The notes under the pieces were generated by a model. It saw only the letters and a program-made list of their open reading frames with translations. It had not been told where the DNA came from and made no database searches. The translations under genes were made by a program, and so were the position numbers. Below are positions 4,238 through 12,317 of a DNA stretch of 64,000 bases, in pieces (within the stretch, counting starts at the first letter, position 1; each line of letters opens with the position of its first letter). The stretch comes from Salinisphaera orenii subsp. orenii MK-B5 (GTDB taxonomy: Bacteria; Pseudomonadota; Gammaproteobacteria; Nevskiales; Salinisphaeraceae): contig NZ_AYKH01000004.1 of NCBI RefSeq assembly GCF_003788635.1, forward strand, positions 1 to 64,000, written 5' to 3'.

Positions 4238-5431
4238 GTGAACGACCCAGTGAACGACAATATCGTCATCGCCGCCGCCGGGCGCACCGCCATCGGCCGC
4301 TTCGGCGGCACGCTGGCCGACGTGTCCGCGGTCGATCTCGGCGCCCACGTCATCCGTGGCCTGCTGGCGAATCACGGCATCGCGGCCGACGCCGTCGACG
4401 AGGTGATCATGGGGCAGGTGCTCACCGCCGGCGAGGGCCAGAATCCGGCTCGTCAGTCGGCGATCCGGGCCGGTCTGCCCGACACCGTGCCGGCCATGAC
4501 CATCAACAAGGTCTGCGGCAGCGGTCTCAAGGCGGTCATGCTGGCCGCCCAGGCGGTCGCGCTCGGCGATGCCGAACTGGTGGTCGCCGGCGGTCAGGAG
4601 AACATGAGCAGCGCGGCGCACGTGCTGCCCGGCTCGCGCACCGGCAAGCGCATGGGTGACTGGGCGCTCGTGGACACCATGATCCGCGACGGCCTCTGGG
4701 ACGCCTTCAACGGCTATCACATGGGCCAGACCGCCGAGAACGTGGCCCAGAAGTACCGCATCTCCCGCGAGGAACAGGACGCCTTCGCCGCGCGTTCGCA
4801 GCAGCGCGCCGAGGAAGCGCTCAAGCACGGGCGTTTCGAGGACGAGGTGCTGCCGATCGAGGTGCCGCAGAAGAAGGGCGATGCCATCGCCTTCGCCCGC
4901 GACGAGGGCCCGCGTCCGGGGGTGACCGCCGAGGGGCTGTCCGGCCTCAAGCCCGCGTTCACGCGTGACGGCAGCGTCACCGCGGGCAACGCCTCGGGGC
5001 TCAACGACGGCGCCGCGGCCGTGGTGGTGACCACGCAGGCCCGGTGCGAAGCGCTGGGGCTGACGCCGCTGGCCACGCTCGCCGGCTATGCCAGCGCCGG
5101 CGTCGACCCGGCGCTCATGGGCATCGGGCCGGTGCCGGCCAGCCAGCGCTGCCTGGCCCGCGCCGGCTGGGCGGTGCCCGATCTCGACCTGATCGAGGCC
5201 AACGAGGCCTTCGCCGCCCAGTCGATCGCCGTCGGCCGCCAGCTGGATTGGGACATCGAGCGGGTCAACGTCAACGGCGGGGCCATCGCCCTCGGGCACC
5301 CGATCGGTGCGTCCGGCTGCCGCATTCTGGTCACGCTGATCCACGAGATGCGGCGGCGCGACGCCCGGAAGGGGCTGGCGACGCTGTGTATCGGCGGCGG
5401 TCAGGGCGTGGCGCTGGCGCTGCAGCGCTAG
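4238..5431 (+). CDS. acetyl-CoA C-acetyltransferase (thiolase)
   Basis: Condenses two acetyl-CoA to acetoacetyl-CoA or runs the reverse reaction, in ketone, polyhydroxybutyrate or fatty-acid metabolism. 397 residues, standard for the family. The acylated Cys is in [16 protein letters not shown] (about residue 90), and the catalytic His and Cys are in [10 protein letters not shown] and CIGGGQG near the C-terminus. The GTG start at 4238 is supported by GGGAGG 7 bases upstream. No phaB, phaC or CoA-transferase gene is adjacent, so PhaA/AtoB-type biosynthetic and degradative roles cannot be separated here. The hairpin in its leader may control its expression. Confidence 0.93.
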
Positions 5432-5568: not shown

Positions 5569-5584
5569 TGGCACCAGTCTTGCT
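5569..5584 (+). promoter_or_regulatory. sigma-54 (RpoN) promoter
   Basis: TGGCAC (5569-5574), 5 bases, then TTGCT (5580-5584). The essential -24 GG and -12 GC are exactly 10 bases apart, and this matches the TGGCAC-N5-TTGCW consensus fully. It points into a gene-free stretch between the thiolase and a convergent efflux operon, not towards a protein gene. No bacterial enhancer-binding protein is encoded nearby. Confidence 0.68.
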
Positions 5585-5594
5585 TTAGCAACAG

Positions 5595-5706
5595 TGCACA
5601 GCGACCTGCGCCGTATTGCTCTCCTCCAATGCGCCCGCGCGACATCTCCTCCGGTCGTTGTGTCAATCGCGGCTTCCGGCCGGTGCATCGCACCGGCCGG
5701 TTTTCT
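5595..5706 (+). ncRNA. predicted sigma-54-dependent small RNA with two anti-Shine-Dalgarno loops
   Basis: Starting about 12 bases after the -12 GC and ending at the terminator, the transcript would be about 110 nt. The octamer TCTCCTCC occurs twice (5620-5627 and 5645-5652), each time in the loop of a hairpin. First hairpin: GCGC (5608-5611) and ATTG (5615-5618) pair with CAAT (5627-5630) and GCGC (5631-5634), with a 3-base bulge. Second hairpin: GCGAC (5638-5642) pairs with GTCGT around loop ATCTCCTCCG. CUCCUCC-loop RNAs in other proteobacteria bind Shine-Dalgarno sequences; sigma-54 control is known for CrcZ-type RNAs. No family was recognised and no open reading frame of note lies inside. 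Confidence 0.5.
5676..5706 (+). terminator. intrinsic terminator of the predicted small RNA
   Basis: A perfect 10-base inverted repeat CCGGCCGGTG (5676-5685) / CACCGGCCGG (5691-5700), 5-base loop, followed by TTTTCT. The T-run is on the plus strand only, so it serves rightward transcripts. It lies 245 bases after the thiolase stop, an odd distance for that gene but fitting for the small RNA. Confidence 0.85.
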
Positions 5707-5724: not shown

Positions 5725-7284
5725 TCAGTCGCGCCACGGCGTCGTTGGCGAACGATCCCCCGGGGCCTCGATCAGACGACGGGTGAGCAGCGTTCCGTCC
5801 GCCACGTACAGCTCGATCAGCGCCTGGCGATAGCCGATGAAGGCATCGATGCGATCCAGCCGTGCGGTGAGCAGGTCGCGCTGGGCCTGGGCCACCAGCA
5901 GGGCGGTCGAACGTCCCACTTCGAAGCGCGCCCGCTCGGCCTCGAGCGTGCGTTCCCGCTCGCGCACGGTCACCGCCGACGCCTCGATCTGGGCGGCCGC
6001 GCGATCGGCCTCGATCAGCGCGTAGCGGACATCCGACTCGATCACCCCGGCGAGATTCTCCAGGCTGGCCTCGGCCTGCCGCCGGCCGGCCCGGGCGCGC
6101 CGATCGCGGGCCCGGGCCGCGCGGTTGCCCAGCGGATACTCGAATTCCAGCGCCCCGGACAGATCGTAGGTGTTGCGATTGTCGAGGGTGTCGTAGGCGC
6201 GGCCGTAGTTCTCGCCGAAGCCGGTCTGGCCGAGGGTCACGAACAGGTCCAGCCGCGGCAGCAGCCCGTTGCGGGTGGCCACGACCTCGAGTTCGTTGCG
6301 GGCCAGCTCCAGCCGCGCCTGGTTGATCTCGGGGCGGCGCCGGCGGGCCAGGTCGACGTATTCGCCGGCGGTGTCGAGCGGCGCGGCCTCGGTGGCCACG
6401 GGCGTGGTCGGCTCGATCGCACGCTCGAAGCGGGTGCGGCCGGGCACGCTGATGAGTTGCAGCAGCCGCGTGCGCAGCCGGCGCGCCTCGGCGCGGCCGT
6501 CGATCAGGTCCTGGCGCCGGCGGGCGGCCTCGGCGGCGAAGGCGGCCTCCTCGACCTCGGCAACGGTGCCGGCCTCGATACGGGCGCGGGCCTCGCGCGA
6601 CTGCCGTCGGGCGACTTCGAGCGCGTTTTCGAGGATGTCGATCCGCCGGCGCGCGCCGAGATAGTCCCAGTAGGTGGATTCCACGTCCGCGACCAGTGAC
6701 GTCACGAAGCCGCGCAGCTCGTAGGCCGAGGCCTGGACATCGGCGCGGGCCTGGCGCAGCGCGACCAGATTGGTATCGATACCGAAACCGCGCAGCAGGG
6801 CCTGGGTGATGGAGAGGCCGGCGCGGGTGCCCGCCTGTCGCGGCGAGCGGTTGGACTCGGACAGGTCCTGTTCCAGGCTGATCTCCAGCTCGGTGCCCGT
6901 GGGCAGGGTCTGGCGCAGGCCGGCGCGGGCCGTCTCCTGCTCGCTGCGGACATCGAAATTCTGCTGGATGTCCTCGGAGACGCGCTCGGTGACCTCCCGC
7001 GAGCGTTCCACGGTGGCGAACACGCTGGGGTCGAACACGGCGCGCTCGACGGCCGCGAAGGTGCCGGCGATGATCGGCTGCTGGCGTTCGGCACGCAGCG
7101 AGGCGTTGTGCTGGATCGCGAGGGCGACCGCTTCCTCGACCGACAGGTCCAGGGTGCCGCGGGCGCCGACCTCGGTCAGTTCCGGCGGCAGCACGAGATT
7201 GTCCGCCTCCACCGCGGCGGCGGTCAGGCTGGCCGCGCTCGTCGCCAGCAGCAGACCGGCCAGCGCCGCGATGCGCCGGCTCAT
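5725..7284 (-). CDS. TolC-family outer-membrane efflux channel
   Basis: Outer-membrane duct of a tripartite pump. 519 residues with an N-terminal signal peptide ([20 protein letters not shown]) and two outer-membrane-factor repeats made of long coiled coils rich in Ala, Arg and Glu, as in TolC/OprM relatives. A sequence of the type LDLSVEEAVALAIQHNASLRAE marks the start of the first repeat. No lipobox Cys was seen. Its ATG overlaps the stop of the RND pump gene by 4 bases, making it the last gene of the MFP-RND-OMF operon. Confidence 0.88.
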   Translation of the reverse strand: MSRRIAALAGLLLATSAASLTAAAVEADNLVLPPELTEVGARGTLDLSVEEAVALAIQHNASLRAERQQPIIAGTFAAVERAVFDPSVFATVERSREVTERVSEDIQQNFDVRSEQETARAGLRQTLPTGTELEISLEQDLSESNRSPRQAGTRAGLSITQALLRGFGIDTNLVALRQARADVQASAYELRGFVTSLVADVESTYWDYLGARRRIDILENALEVARRQSREARARIEAGTVAEVEEAAFAAEAARRRQDLIDGRAEARRLRTRLLQLISVPGRTRFERAIEPTTPVATEAAPLDTAGEYVDLARRRRPEINQARLELARNELEVVATRNGLLPRLDLFVTLGQTGFGENYGRAYDTLDNRNTYDLSGALEFEYPLGNRAARARDRRARAGRRQAEASLENLAGVIESDVRYALIEADRAAAQIEASAVTVRERERTLEAERARFEVGRSTALLVAQAQRDLLTARLDRIDAFIGYRQALIELYVADGTLLTRRLIEAPGDRSPTTPWRD

Positions 7285-10200
7285 GCCGCGCCTCCGCGCG
7301 GCGGCCAGGCGCGATGCACGCCGGCGTAGACCACGGGGATGACGATCAGCGTGATCAGCGTGGCCGTGGTCATGCCGCCGATCACCGCCCGCGCCAGCGG
7401 CGCCTGCGATTCCGAGCCCTCGCCCGCGCCGATGGCCAGCGGTACCAGCGCGAACACCGTCGTGGCCGCGGTCATCAGGATCGGGCGCAGGCGCCGCCGC
7501 CCGGCTTCGCGCACCGCGGCCAGCGCGGCGAGTCCGTCGCGCTGCAGGGCGTTGGCCTGATCGACGACGAGAATCGCGTTGTTGACGACGATGCCGATGA
7601 GCATGAGACAGCCCAGCAGCGACTGCGAGTTGAGCGTGGTCCCGGTGGCGGCGAGCGTGGCGACCACACCGATCAGCGCCAGCGGCACCGTGGTCATCAC
7701 GATCAGCGGATCGATCAGGGATTCGTAGAGACAGGCCATCACCATGTACACCAGCAGCAGGGCGAGCGCGACGTTGATGCCCAGCTCGCGGAACGCCTCC
7801 ACCTGTTCCTCGTATTCGCCCACCAGCTGCATGTCGTAGTTGGCCGGCAGCGCGATGTCGTCGAGGGCGGCCTGCACGTCGGCGACCACCGAGCCGAGAT
7901 CACGATCGGCCACGTTGGCATAGACCGAGACCAGGCGCTGCTGGTTCTGGCGCTCGATCACGATCGGGCCGACGGCCTCGACGATCGTCGCGACGTCGCC
8001 CAGTCGCACGCGCGCGCCGTCGCGGCCCGAGCCGCTGACCGGCACCGGCAGATCGAGGATCTGCTCCGGGGCGACCTGCATCGGGTCGTTTAACTGCACC
8101 CGCACGCGCACCTCGTCGCCGTCGTCGAGATAATAGCCGGCGTTGGTGCCGGCGATCGCGGTCTCGACCGTCTCGCCGATCGCTTCGACCGTCACGCCGC
8201 GGTCGGCAGCGGCATCGCGGTCGATGATGATGTCGCGCTGGGGCGCGCCGCCGGTGCGCGAGGCGCGCACGTCGGTGATGCCGCCGATGCCGGCGATCGC
8301 GGTCTGCAGCCGGCCCGACAGCCGTTCGAGCACGTCGAAGTCGTAGCCGCGCACCTCCACCTGCACGCTCTCGTCCTCGCCGCCGAAATCCAGCATGCGG
8401 AAGAAGAACGGCTGACGCACCCGCACGCGCACCTCGGTGTCGGGCAGGGCGCCGATCGCGGCCCGCAGGTCGGCGGCGACGTCGGCGCTGGAACGCTCGC
8501 GCGCGGCCGTCGGCGGCAGTTCGATGCGGATATCGGCCTCGGCGCCGGCGTCGGCGCGATAGCTGCCGCTGCCCACGCTCGTGACCACCGACAGCGCCTC
8601 CGGCACCTGCGCGCGCACGATCGCCTCGGCCTTGCGGGTCTGGGCGTCCATGACGTCCAGGCGGGTGCCCGGCGGCATCTCCAGATCGACGCGGACCTCG
8701 CCCTCGTCCGAGGCGGGCATGAATTCGGTACCGAGCTGGCCGAAGCCGGCGAGCGCGGCGAGGCTGGCGAGACCGGCCGCCAAAAGCACCCGCCGCGGTG
8801 CCGCCAGCGCGGCGTCGAGCGCGCGCCGGTAGCCGTGGTGCAGGCGATCGTAGAGACGGCCGGCGCGGGCGAACAGCGACTGGACGGCGCGCGAGCGCGG
8901 CGGTTGAGCCAGCCCAACCACGCGTGCGGTGAGCATCGGCATGAGTGTCAGCGCGACCGCCAGCGAGCAGGCCAGCGCGAAGGCCACCACCACCGCGAGC
9001 GTCTGGAACAGCTGGCCCGAGAGCTCGCGCGCGAACAGCATGGGGATGAAGATCGCGAGCGTGGTCAGCGTGCTGGCGATGATCGCCCCGGCGACTTCGT
9101 CGGTGCCCGCCACGGCCGAGGCGAGCCGATCCTCGCCGAACTCGCTGCGTCGTCGCTGGATGTTTTCGAGCACCACGATCGCCGAGTCGACCATCATGCC
9201 TACGCCCAGCGCCAGTCCGCCGAGGGTCATCAGATTCAGGGTGTAGCCGGCGCCGTACATGAGCCCGAAGGTGGCGATCAGCGACACGGGGATGGCCAGC
9301 GAAACCGCCAGCGCGGCGCGCAGATGGCCGAGGAAGACCAGCAGCACCACGAACGCCAGCACGCTGCCGTAGATCAGCGCCCGCGAGACGTTGGCGATGG
9401 AGCGATTGATGTAGTCCGCGGTGTTGAAATAAGCGCTGATGCGGACCTGGGGGAACTCGCGGTTGAGTTCGGCGATTTCGTCGGTGAGCCGGCGCGCGAC
9501 CTCGACCGTGTTGGCCCCCGACTGCTTGCGTACGCCCATGCGCACCCCGCGCTCGCCGTTGATGCGGATTAGGCGTTCCTCGCGCTGCTGGGTATCGACC
9601 ACGGTGGCGATGTCGCCGAGCGTGATCGGCGTGTCCTCGCGCATGAGCACCACCGCGCTGCGCAGATCGTCGAGATCGCTGAAGCGCCCCGGCGTGCGCA
9701 GCACCAGTTCCTGGTTGCCGATCTCGATCGAGCCCGCGGGCAGGTTGCGGTTGGCTGCGGCGAGCGTGTCGCGGATGTCGGTCAGCGACAGATCCAGCGC
9801 GCGCACCCGGTCGAAATCCAGATTCACCTGAATCTCGCGCTCCGGTTCGCCCCAGATCTCGACCGCGGCCACGCCCTGGATCTGCTGTAATCGATAGGAC
9901 AGCTGGTTGTCGATCAGCCGGCGCAGCTCGATGGGATCGATGGTGCTGGCCAGGCCGAGGCCCATCACCGGCAGATCGGCGGTGTCGAACTTGCGCAGCC
10001 GCGGCCGGCTGGCGTCGTCGGGCAGGTCGTCGAGTTCGGAGAACAGCCGGTCGCGGACGTCGTTGGCGGCGGCGTCAATGTCCACGCCCCAGCCGAAGCG
10101 CAGGGTGACGTCGGTCGTGCCCTCGACCGAGGTCGACTCCATCTCTTCGAGCCCCGGGGTGGCGGCCACCGCCTGTTCGACCGGCCGCGTGACCAGTTCC

Positions 10201-10382
10201 TCCATGGTCTCGGGGGCGGCGTTCTCGTAGTCCACCGAGACGGTCAGCGTGGGGGTCTCGATGTCGGGCAGCAGGTCCACCGGCAGCCGCATCAGGGCCA
10301 CGCCGCCGAGCAGCAGCGCGATCGCCATGACCATGCAGGTGGTGATCGGCCGGGCGACCGCGAACGCCGGCAGCGATCTCAT
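7281..10382 (-). CDS. RND-family efflux pump (AcrB/MexB-like inner-membrane transporter)
   Basis: Proton-driven inner-membrane pump, 1033 residues with the usual 12-helix plan: one N-terminal helix (about 11-30), a large periplasmic domain, a helix block near 330-530, a second periplasmic domain and a C-terminal block near 850-1020. Hallmarks include [17 protein letters not shown] after helix 1 and [16 protein letters not shown] in helix 4, which carries the proton-relay Asp. It resembles HAE1-type drug pumps more than heavy-metal CzcA pumps, but substrate cannot be told from sequence. It overlaps both neighbours by 4 bases. Confidence 0.93.
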
Positions 10383-11563
10383 GGCGTGGCCGGCGGCTCC
10401 GCGTCGCCTGAGTCGCCGGCGTCGAAGTCGACCGCGATGCCGTCCTCGAGCTGCGCCTGGCCCAGGGTCACGACCTGGCCGTCGAGGCTGGCCGGGCTGC
10501 GGATGGCGGCCCGCTCGCGGTTACGGAAGGCGACCTCGACCGCGTGGAAGCGGGCTACGCCGGCTGCCTCGTCGACGAGGAACACGCCGGTCTCGCCGCC
10601 GCGTTCGACCAGAGCGGCCCGTGGCACCACGGGCGCGGCCTCGAGGTGCTCGGCGACCAGACCGATGCGCACGAACATGCCCGGCGCGAGCCGGCCGCCG
10701 TCGTTGTCCACCGACAGCTCCACGCGGGCGCGTCGGGTGTCCGGATCGAACACCGGCGCGATGCGCTCGATCACCGCGCCGTGGGTGGCCTCGGCCGCAC
10801 CGGCCACGCGCAGGCGCGCGCTCCGGCCCACGGCCAGTTGGGTGTAGATCGCCTCCGGGACCTGGATCACGGCGGTCAGCGGCGTGACCGAGACCACGCT
10901 GAGCAACGACGTGTTGGCCGCGACCGTGTCCCCGGGCTCGACGCTGCGCTCGCCCACCACGCGTTCGCCGTCCGCGCCGGGCCAGTCGGCGTGGATCTCG
11001 GTGTAGCCGAGCCGCACCCGCGCGGTCTCGACCCGGGCGCGGGCCTCGGCGATGCCGGCACGCGCGACCGACAGCGCCGAGCGGGCGTTGGCCCCCTGCG
11101 ACTCGGCCTCGTCGAGCTCGGCGTCCGGGGCGATGCCCTTGTCGTTGAGCGAGCGTACCCGCGACAGCGTGCGCCGGGCGTTGGCGGCGTCGCTTTCGGC
11201 CCGATCGAGCTCGGCCCGGGCGACTTCCAGCTGGGCGTCGGCCTCGGCCAGCGCCTGGCGGTATTCGTTGTCGTCGAGGGTGACCAGCAGGTCGCCGCGC
11301 GCGACCGTGTCGCCGATATCCACCGTCACGCGCTCGATCTGGCCGGCGATCTTGGGGGCCACCGTGAGCCGGGCGCTGGCCTCGAGGCTGCCGGAGAACT
11401 CGCGAAGATCGTCGATCGCGGCGCGCTCGACGGGCGTGATCTCGACCGCCACTTCCCGGGTCGCCGCGGCGGCCTCGGTCGGCTCGGGCGCCGACCACCA
11501 GTACAGCGCCGCGGCGACAAGCGCGGCAACGCCGAGGACGACAAGCAGGCGACGCGTCGTCAT
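10379..11563 (-). CDS. periplasmic adaptor (membrane fusion protein) of RND pump
   Basis: Links the RND pump to the TolC-like channel. 394 residues: N-terminal membrane anchor (about 5-22) with no lipobox, then the lipoyl half-motif GQIERVTVDIGDTVARGDLLVTLDD, a coiled-coil hairpin rich in Ala/Glu/Arg (about 105-180), and beta-barrel strands. First gene of the efflux operon; it ends in a 4-base overlap with the pump gene. An 18-base dyad in the 184-base divergent region upstream is a candidate operator; no regulator gene is adjacent. Confidence 0.9.
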   Translation of the reverse strand: MTTRRLLVVLGVAALVAAALYWWSAPEPTEAAAATREVAVEITPVERAAIDDLREFSGSLEASARLTVAPKIAGQIERVTVDIGDTVARGDLLVTLDDNEYRQALAEADAQLEVARAELDRAESDAANARRTLSRVRSLNDKGIAPDAELDEAESQGANARSALSVARAGIAEARARVETARVRLGYTEIHADWPGADGERVVGERSVEPGDTVAANTSLLSVVSVTPLTAVIQVPEAIYTQLAVGRSARLRVAGAAEATHGAVIERIAPVFDPDTRRARVELSVDNDGGRLAPGMFVRIGLVAEHLEAAPVVPRAALVERGGETGVFLVDEAAGVARFHAVEVAFRNRERAAIRSPASLDGQVVTLGQAQLEDGIAVDFDAGDSGDAEPPATP

Positions 11564-11635: not shown

Positions 11636-11747
11636 GCACCGGGCGATTGCGCGAGGCGATGGATATCCGGTACAACAGATCATGCGTCAAGGCGCGGTCA
11701 CATGTCCGCGCGAGAATGACGACGCGGCAACCGAAGAGGATGATCCC

Positions 11748-12317
11748 GTGGACGTGATTCCACGCATACTCAAGCTCGATGCCGGTGGTCTGCCCGTGGA
11801 ATGGGTGGATTGGCGGGAAGCGGTGAGTCTCTACTTCACCGACAAGATCGCCTGGGAGGCCGGCAGCGAGAAGATCTGCCTGCGCGGCGGCCGGTCGCGG
11901 GAGACCGGCATCCGCAGCGAGCTGGCGATCGATTCCATCATCGCGGTGCGCGACCGCTCGCATCGCTTCGCCCGCAATCTGGTCCCGGCCCTGACCCGGC
12001 GCGAGCTCTATCACCGCGACGGCGGGCTCTGTCTGTACTGCGGCACCCGCCTCGGCTTCAGCCAGATGCAGATCGAGCACGTCGTGCCGCGCTCGAAGGG
12101 CGGGGTGCACGAGTGGACCAACGTCGTGTCCACCTGCGAGGCCTGCAATCGCTACAAGGATGACCGCACGCCCGAGCAGGCCGGCATGTCGCTGCTGGCG
12201 CTGCCCTACGAGCCCAATCTCGCGGAATGGCTCATCCTCGCCAATCGACGGATCCTGGCCGACCAGCAGGCCTTTCTGGAACGCCTCGCCCCGAGGCGCC
12301 AGCGCCTCACCGTCTGA
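11748..12317 (+). CDS. HNH endonuclease family protein
   Basis: About 189 residues. The C-terminal half holds a zinc-binding HNH module: GGLCLYCGTRLG (CxxC), IEHVVPRSKGGVHEWTNVVSTC with the catalytic His, and CEACNRYKDDRTPEQ (second CxxC). The N-terminal 80 residues (VDWREAVSLYFTDKIAWE) match the stand-alone HNH proteins widely found in free-living proteobacteria, whose role is unknown. The GTG at 11748 is preferred because AGAGGA sits 7 bases upstream; an in-frame ATG at 11682 would add an unusual tail. It is monocistronic, with no phage, intron or restriction genes around it, so mobility is not implied. Confidence 0.82.
   Translation: MDVIPRILKLDAGGLPVEWVDWREAVSLYFTDKIAWEAGSEKICLRGGRSRETGIRSELAIDSIIAVRDRSHRFARNLVPALTRRELYHRDGGLCLYCGTRLGFSQMQIEHVVPRSKGGVHEWTNVVSTCEACNRYKDDRTPEQAGMSLLALPYEPNLAEWLILANRRILADQQAFLERLAPRRQRLTV

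Follow-up and report, generated by a model that had tools for sequence, protein, structure and literature searches.

A predicted sigma-54-dependent small RNA gene with an anti-Shine-Dalgarno loop behind a thiolase gene in Salinisphaera, and a possible NtrC enhancer within the thiolase codons

A stretch of 64,000 nucleotides from Salinisphaera orenii MK-B5 (the window) almost certainly contains a real small RNA (sRNA) gene at 5569-5706, and this gene is very probably under sigma-54 control. The encoded RNA would display a single conserved anti-Shine-Dalgarno (anti-SD) hairpin loop, which is likely to repress mRNAs. A reading favoured at slightly better than even confidence describes a free-standing, trans-acting sRNA that is activated by NtrC and sigma-54 and blocks GGAGGAGA-type ribosome binding sites. 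The gene, its promoter and structure, the conservation of its loop and of an NtrC-type dyad, and the presence of ntrC, rpoN and hfq genes were established by computation on genome sequences.

The sRNA gene, its promoter and its fold

The locus lies behind an acetyl-CoA acyltransferase/acetyltransferase (thiolase) gene at 4238-5431 on the plus strand (TIGR01930 of NCBIfam, 484 bits, cut-off 240.55). The TGGCAC-N5-TTGCT promoter described in the original prediction is present on the same strand at 5569-5584 (TGGCACCAGTCTTGCT). It conforms to the -24/-12 consensus of sigma-54, and is the sole exact match to TGGCAY-N5-TTGCW in the window, where 0.10 are expected; at least one such match appeared in 10 of 100 dinucleotide shuffles of the window. 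The promoter followed by CTCCTCC 20-50 bases on occurs once in the source genome, in which the reversed control pattern gave no occurrence.

The predicted transcript of about 110 nt extends from 5595 to 5706 on the plus strand, its start being placed from the position of the promoter. It is more stable than its shuffled versions (z -5.5), none of 200 being as stable. In the predicted fold, the 5' arm of an outer stem (5596-5606) pairs with a 3' arm at 5653-5663, which is also seen in the consensus, and the consensus of this helix exhibits two-sided changes in 8 of 12 pairs. A linker, AUCGCGGCUU, at 5666-5675 separates the stem from the terminator and is mostly unpaired (mean unpaired probability 0.66-0.83 across AUCGCGGCUUCC). 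The intrinsic terminator at 5676-5704 ends in TTTT, as had been proposed, and its stem comprises 11 bp (arms 5676-5686 and 5690-5700) rather than the 10 originally given. None of the nine distinct sequences departs from the others in the linker or the first terminator bases, which may form a second functional element.

Downstream, genes for an outer-membrane factor, an RND pump and a membrane fusion protein, as judged by sequence, occupy 5725-11563 on the minus strand. This tripartite efflux operon converges on the sRNA gene, and the downstream neighbour differs in some relatives.

Distribution and conservation

A covariance model was built from nine distinct sequences, of which the source sequence is one; its match at 5595-5704 scores 108 bits (E 1.5e-19). 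With this model, sRNA homologues were found in 10 of 14 Salinisphaera genomes, in agreement with BLASTN, which gave strong homologues (E below 1e-6) in the source genome and nine congeners among 61 genomes. Named records bearing the sRNA in a pattern scan include S. shabanensis, S. hydrothermalis, S. halophila and three more, and the S. halophila stretch (G012) is identical to that of the source genome across 161 bases. Under stricter filters, at which weak matches are lost, none of 71 other genomes of the order gave a credible match to the model, and among the matches listed for 369 genomes drawn from the class only the source genome and G003 were credible. In that sample the congener G013 gave no match, and the remaining 366 genomes, taken as non-congeners, gave no credible one.

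A scan of GTDB contigs for the promoter with CTCCTCCRAT returned 46 stretches, where roughly 29 would be expected by chance on a crude estimate; six of them match the model, all from Salinisphaera. The other 40 were set aside, their best model match (L074) having an E value of 0.5. Three further covariance matches were rejected as homologues: one in G015 (E 0.005), which by sequence falls in the hrcA-grpE region, and one in G017 (E 0.008), both without a sigma-54 promoter in the locus or CTCCTCC in the match, and a second, antisense match in G007 (E 0.007). The window gave no match to Rfam 15 at gathering score, and the best weak matches at the locus fall far under the cut-off (e.g. SECIS_2, 19.5 bits against 70).

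The ten bearing genomes have in common the site directly behind the thiolase gene, the promoter and the hairpin loop. The pattern TGGCAY-N5-TTGCW is retained in nine, the tenth (G009) having TGGCCC-N5-TTGCA, and the GG-N10-GC spacing typical of sigma-54-dependent genes is found in all of them, as is an invariant stretch, AUCGCGGCUUCCGGCCGG, which extends into the terminator. In the consensus structure 11 of 34 pairs show two-sided changes, with 93.1% of cells paired. None of 500 shuffles, which ignore relatedness, reached the observed covariation on four of five measures; on the fifth, the number of pair types in the stem, 150 of 500 did so. Shifting the partner by one to three columns destroyed the signal, leaving 26-46% paired. 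Taken alone, CTCCTCC occurs in the window at chance level (11 found versus 9.85 expected), as a chance arrangement without function would have it, and the weight is therefore placed on conservation and not on the repeat; the conservation over nine distinct sequences, the covariation and the specificity of the promoter make such an arrangement scarcely credible.

The position after the thiolase gene, already part of the original prediction, is borne out by synteny: in all ten bearing genomes the sRNA lies directly 3' of the thiolase orthologue in the same orientation. The same arrangement would suit a stable 3' end of the thiolase mRNA, whose structure would be a terminator module and whose promoter would be incidental. 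This alternative is nevertheless very improbable, given that the sigma-54 promoter is kept in all ten genomes at a variable distance from the thiolase stop (58-137 bases over the nine distinct sequences) and that conservation extends to the loop and stem that precede the terminator. The proposal of a sigma-54-dependent sRNA gene is supported by the conserved promoter, one conserved and exposed anti-SD loop, and the specificity of the promoter-plus-CTCCTCC pattern.

Four genomes of the genus are devoid of the sRNA (G002, G010, G011 and G013). The assemblies of G010 and G011 are 87% and 81% complete, so that absence in these two may reflect missing sequence, and those of G002 and G013 are both 99% complete. 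No close thiolase orthologue is present in G011 (best identity 45%). Among genomes lacking the sRNA, the sequence behind the thiolase gene was read in G002 and in G015, and not in G013 (L103) or G010 (L105). In G002 (L102), the gene that follows the thiolase gene resembles, by eye, the HNH-type product of 11682-12317 in the window, which indicates that the region has been rearranged between species. In a midpoint-rooted tree of the thiolase alone, into which G015, a member of another genus, also falls, G013 and G010 group together next to the bearing G001; the RNA has thus probably been lost in both.

The anti-SD loop and its candidate targets

The proposed anti-SD seed is the hairpin loop CUCUCCUC at 5619-5626 on the plus strand, which with its closing C gives UCUCCUCC at 5620-5627. 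Its CTCCTCC is invariant in the nine distinct sequences and thus in all ten bearing genomes, always placed in an 8-nt hairpin loop with its closing pair; the loop sequence is UCUCCUCC in eight distinct sequences and CCUCCUCC in G008. An exposed CUCCUCC-type seed within a loop, as befits an anti-SD sRNA, is therefore present: the loop is predicted to be almost fully unpaired in eight of the nine sequences and partly paired in that of G001.

The source sequence does contain TCTCCTCC twice, at 5620-5627 and 5645-5652, as originally reported. The second copy, on the plus strand, was thought to occupy the loop of its own hairpin, and instead falls within an internal loop, on its unpaired 3' arm (5642-5652). 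It is limited to this species and the identical G012, and the eight other bearing genomes have different, mostly pyrimidine-rich sequence at its position. Of the two anti-SD loops claimed, one is thus conserved throughout; the second, lying outside a hairpin and absent elsewhere, fails as a feature of the sRNA family.

Gene starts were taken from a home-made gene caller, which called 842 genes over 1.25 Mb of sequence, or roughly one third of the source genome. The commonest 7-mer before the predicted starts is GAGGAGA (28 of 842 genes, 29.8 times expectation), which is complementary to the sRNA loop. It was also observed that in these stretches GAGGAGA, and not the classical AAGGAGG core, tops the start 7-mers. 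A loop of this kind is complementary to any exposed GGAGGAG, and might as a sponge bind the GGA-rich loops of other sRNAs (CsrB/RsmZ type) in place of mRNA leaders, an activity which the accessible portion of one report describes for anti-SD sRNA systems in Caulobacter (PMC12559287). Such a role is quite improbable here, as the loop is already matched by the most frequent start motif of the genome, and pairing of the loop with mRNA leaders is preferred.

The computed duplex between the loop and GGAGGAGAA amounts to about -14 kcal/mol in isolation. GGAGGAG precedes the start of 16 of the 842 genes in the source genome, and the 15 that were scanned include DctP-type and Peripla_BP_6 binding proteins, a xanthine/uracil permease, an MFS transporter, a vanillate-demethylase-type oxygenase, a hydantoinase and an acyl-CoA synthetase with an acetyl-CoA-synthetase N-terminus. 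In this genome, genes with GGAGGAG show no clear excess of signal-peptide-like starts (4 of 16 versus 11 of 64 controls).

Across the genus, TTGGAGGAGA directly before ATG occurs at 10 sites, one apiece in 10 of 14 genomes, and no gene behind these sites is common to two bearing genomes. The motif GGAGGAGAA before ATG occurs 76 times, with 65 of the sites in the ten bearing genomes and the other 11 in the four that lack the sRNA; frames of fewer than 90 codons, six per group, were dropped before the Pfam scan. Among the best 25 of 56 families for the 59 genes of the bearing genomes, periplasmic binding-protein families lead, with six members each for Peripla_BP_4 and NMT1_3, five for Phosphonate-bd and four for NMT1, counts in which families overlap and members include orthologues. 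In strong-SD controls (62 of 64 scanned), no binding-protein family with at least two members appears among the best 25 of 94 families, and by eye about two members resemble binding proteins. G002, devoid of the sRNA, has nine GGAGGAGAA starts versus 3-10 per bearing genome, and this type of SD sequence is thus independent of the sRNA; one of its five scanned GGAGGAGAA genes codes for a binding protein. No target is common to most bearing genomes: the widest BLAST orthologue groups span three, among them a TAXI-type protein (G003, G005, G007) and a Peripla_BP_4-like protein (G001, G006, G008). The ntrC leaders of the source genome, G008 and G002 are without GGAGGAG. A target class of binding proteins and transporters is offered as a lead, with controls that are weak or point the other way, and the broad translational repression suggested by the original prediction may follow.

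An NtrC-type dyad inside the thiolase codons

A perfect NtrC-type dyad, GCACCCGATCGGTGC, lies at 5296-5310 inside the thiolase reading frame and is proposed as the enhancer. Its core, GCACC-N5-GGTGC, follows the NtrC dyad consensus, the outer T of the left half being absent, and the upstream binding dyad that marks members of the NtrC regulon is thus found here. In the source thiolase it is spelled by the codons GGG CAC CCG ATC GGT GCG, and across the bearing orthologues by GGG CAC CCN RTY GGT GCR, coding for the motif GHP(I/V)GA. The dyad is present in all ten bearing orthologues, 205-275 bp upstream of the sigma-54 promoter, and in one of four orthologues from genomes lacking the sRNA (present in G002; absent from G013, G010 and G015, the last from another genus). 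In the thiolase paralogues, for which 16 loci were given, the motif was located in eight, and all eight lack the dyad. G013 and G010, which neighbour G001 in the thiolase tree, both have the dyad broken.

Part of this conservation is coding, since the dyad overlaps the conserved thiolase motif GHPIG. The codon alignment of the nine distinct bearing orthologues has 35 glycine columns that are invariant in the protein, of which five are also invariant in the codon, and three of these five use the common GGC. The two dyad glycines are the only all-GGG and the only all-GGT column among the 35, both being minority glycine codons, and the only all-CAC column out of five histidine columns sits between them, inside the dyad. 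The wobble bases of the half-sites are frozen, as against those of the 5-base spacer, which vary.

The same sRNA may be driven from its sigma-54 promoter by another enhancer-binding protein (e.g. of CbrB or AtoC type), with the dyad a by-product of thiolase codons. The location of the dyad within the conserved GHPIG stretch, its presence in G002 without any sRNA, the 16 activator-domain matches in the source genome, eleven of them strong (E below 1e-40) and five weaker, and a site behind a thiolase gene that suits carbon control all speak for this alternative. It is nonetheless considered unlikely in the face of the unique all-GGG, all-GGT and all-CAC columns described above, and of the absence of CbrB- and TyrR-type dyads, as defined by their established half-sites, from the 220-base upstream regions, thiolase coding sequence included. 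In a dyad scan of these regions, the top four upstream dyads are common to seven of nine sequences versus three to four in three shuffles; since the regions include thiolase coding sequence, only the NtrC motif was taken further. An intergenic NtrC-like site in the source genome, GCACC-N5-GGGGC at 128 bases upstream of the promoter, and another in G004 are not common to other bearing genomes and were discarded as the enhancer. NtrC is thus regarded as the reasonably likely activator of the sRNA, and the sequence of the embedded dyad suggests that NtrC may bind there.

The wider nitrogen-control context of the genus was also surveyed, with gene names assigned by eye. In the source genome a perfect TGCACC-N5-GGTGCA dyad precedes glnK-amtB, and dyads with one mismatch precede amtB in G003 and glnA in G008. 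The dyad is followed by a sigma-54-like promoter at glnK of the source genome (TGGCAC-N5-GTGC, by eye) and at glnA of G008. The dyads at glnK-amtB and glnA support the NtrC consensus in this genus, and together with the thiolase-embedded dyad they lend indirect support to the original suggestion of a nitrogen link. No recognised nitrogen gene neighbours the other of the two perfect dyads in the source genome (L193). Dyads with at most one mismatch number 17 versus 6 for the reversed control in the source genome, 12 versus 3 in G008 and, barely above the control, 12 versus 10 in G003. A one-mismatch NtrC dyad beside a sigma-54 motif, TGGCACGAGCCTTGCT, was also noticed on the minus strand of L197 (G003, about 1501-1580), upstream of a cytosine/purine permease-like gene, which is probably another NtrC target in Salinisphaera. 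The ntrC gene is present in the two genomes tested, the source genome and G008; in the former it lies on another contig (C44), and its product passes TIGR01818 (702 bits, cut-off 558.6). All 14 genomes of the genus contain rpoN and hfq.

Proposed mechanism and its implications

Under nitrogen limitation, phosphorylated NtrC would bind the dyad within the upstream thiolase coding sequence and would activate transcription by sigma-54 RNA polymerase at 5569-5584. The resulting RNA of about 110 nt would form one long stem that displays the single CUCCUCC hairpin loop and ends in a strong terminator. Pairing of this loop with GGAGGAGA-type ribosome binding sites, probably with the assistance of Hfq, would block translation of target mRNAs, proposed to be those for uptake and for peripheral carbon and nitrogen catabolism. 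The physiological sense would then be that nitrogen starvation switches off GGAGGAGA-led uptake and catabolic genes.

If true, an enhancer within thiolase codons would explain why the sRNA never leaves the thiolase gene, and would account simply for the constancy of its gene neighbourhood. It would also provide a clean test of dual coding, whereby synonymous mutations should silence the sRNA and leave the enzyme unchanged. The system would further represent a separate origin, among halophilic Gammaproteobacteria, of anti-SD control of nutrient uptake, one that relies on a different promoter logic.

Comparison with known small RNAs

A literature search on Salinisphaera and on anti-SD and NtrC/sigma-54 sRNAs, with most subscription journals outside its scope, gave no paper on the present RNA. 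Among sRNA genes with sigma-54 promoters, GlmY and GlmZ act by other means. Their promoter type is recorded, together with that of CrcZ, in the available parts of PMC8395346 and PMC3844500; CrcZ is a decoy for Hfq, 407 nt long and carrying A-rich motifs. A precedent for an sRNA under NtrC/sigma-54 control is NrsZ of Pseudomonas, a gammaproteobacterial sRNA of nitrogen limitation that depends on NtrB/C and RpoN; as far as the accessible text goes, NrsZ is about 226 nt long, processed, located beside ntrC and an activator of rhlA translation (PMC8395346). The Salinisphaera RNA differs in being about 110 nt long and in lying beside a thiolase gene. In Enterobacteriaceae, an sRNA from the glnA 3'UTR is tied to nitrogen limitation and carbon/nitrogen balance, yet the portion of its description that was available has it released from the glnA mRNA, with no gene of its own (PMC9731577).

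The combination of anti-SD loops and nitrogen control is known from the alphaproteobacteria, in the form of NfeR1 and MmgR, on the evidence of partial texts. NfeR1 (alpha-r14) of Sinorhizobium has anti-SD loops, is linked to nitrogen stress and NtrBC, and counts periplasmic binding proteins among its targets; the excerpts at hand give it three identical CCUCCUCCC motifs, activation by LsrB, repression by NtrC and silencing of ntrB (PMC10746234). The alphaproteobacterial MmgR/SisA (alpha-r8) has an anti-SD 10-mer, according to the sections available of PMC8401924 and PMC12559287; MmgR is raised with NtrC on nitrogen depletion and affects PHB, yet the control reported there is through a dyad within its -35/-10 boxes, with no sigma-54 promoter (PMC8401924). 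AbcR1 and AbcR2 (alpha-r15) of Sinorhizobium, of 121 and 114 nt, are described in the accessible part of PMC8844928 as targeting mostly transport and metabolic mRNAs, as depending in their expression on the carbon and nitrogen source, and as alphaproteobacterial RNAs encoded beside lsrB with two different anti-SD motifs. Unlike these, the Salinisphaera RNA is preceded by a sigma-54 promoter, conserves a single motif and matches nothing in Rfam; alpha-r14, alpha-r15 and alpha-r8 gave no match in the Rfam 15 search, whose library may not hold each alpha family.

The binding-protein families that lead among the GGAGGAGAA genes of Salinisphaera, a lead for its targets, correspond to the target class of AbcR and NfeR1, so far as their partial accounts extend (PMC8844928, PMC10746234). 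What is combined here is a sigma-54 promoter, one anti-SD hairpin, a gammaproteobacterial host, the lack of an Rfam family and a likely intragenic enhancer. That this amounts to an anti-SD sRNA independent of AbcR, NfeR1 and SisA, and driven by sigma-54 from an NtrC enhancer in synonymous thiolase codons, is put forward tentatively, at a little under even confidence. The best reading is that the Salinisphaera RNA would work like AbcR and NfeR1 without belonging to their families.
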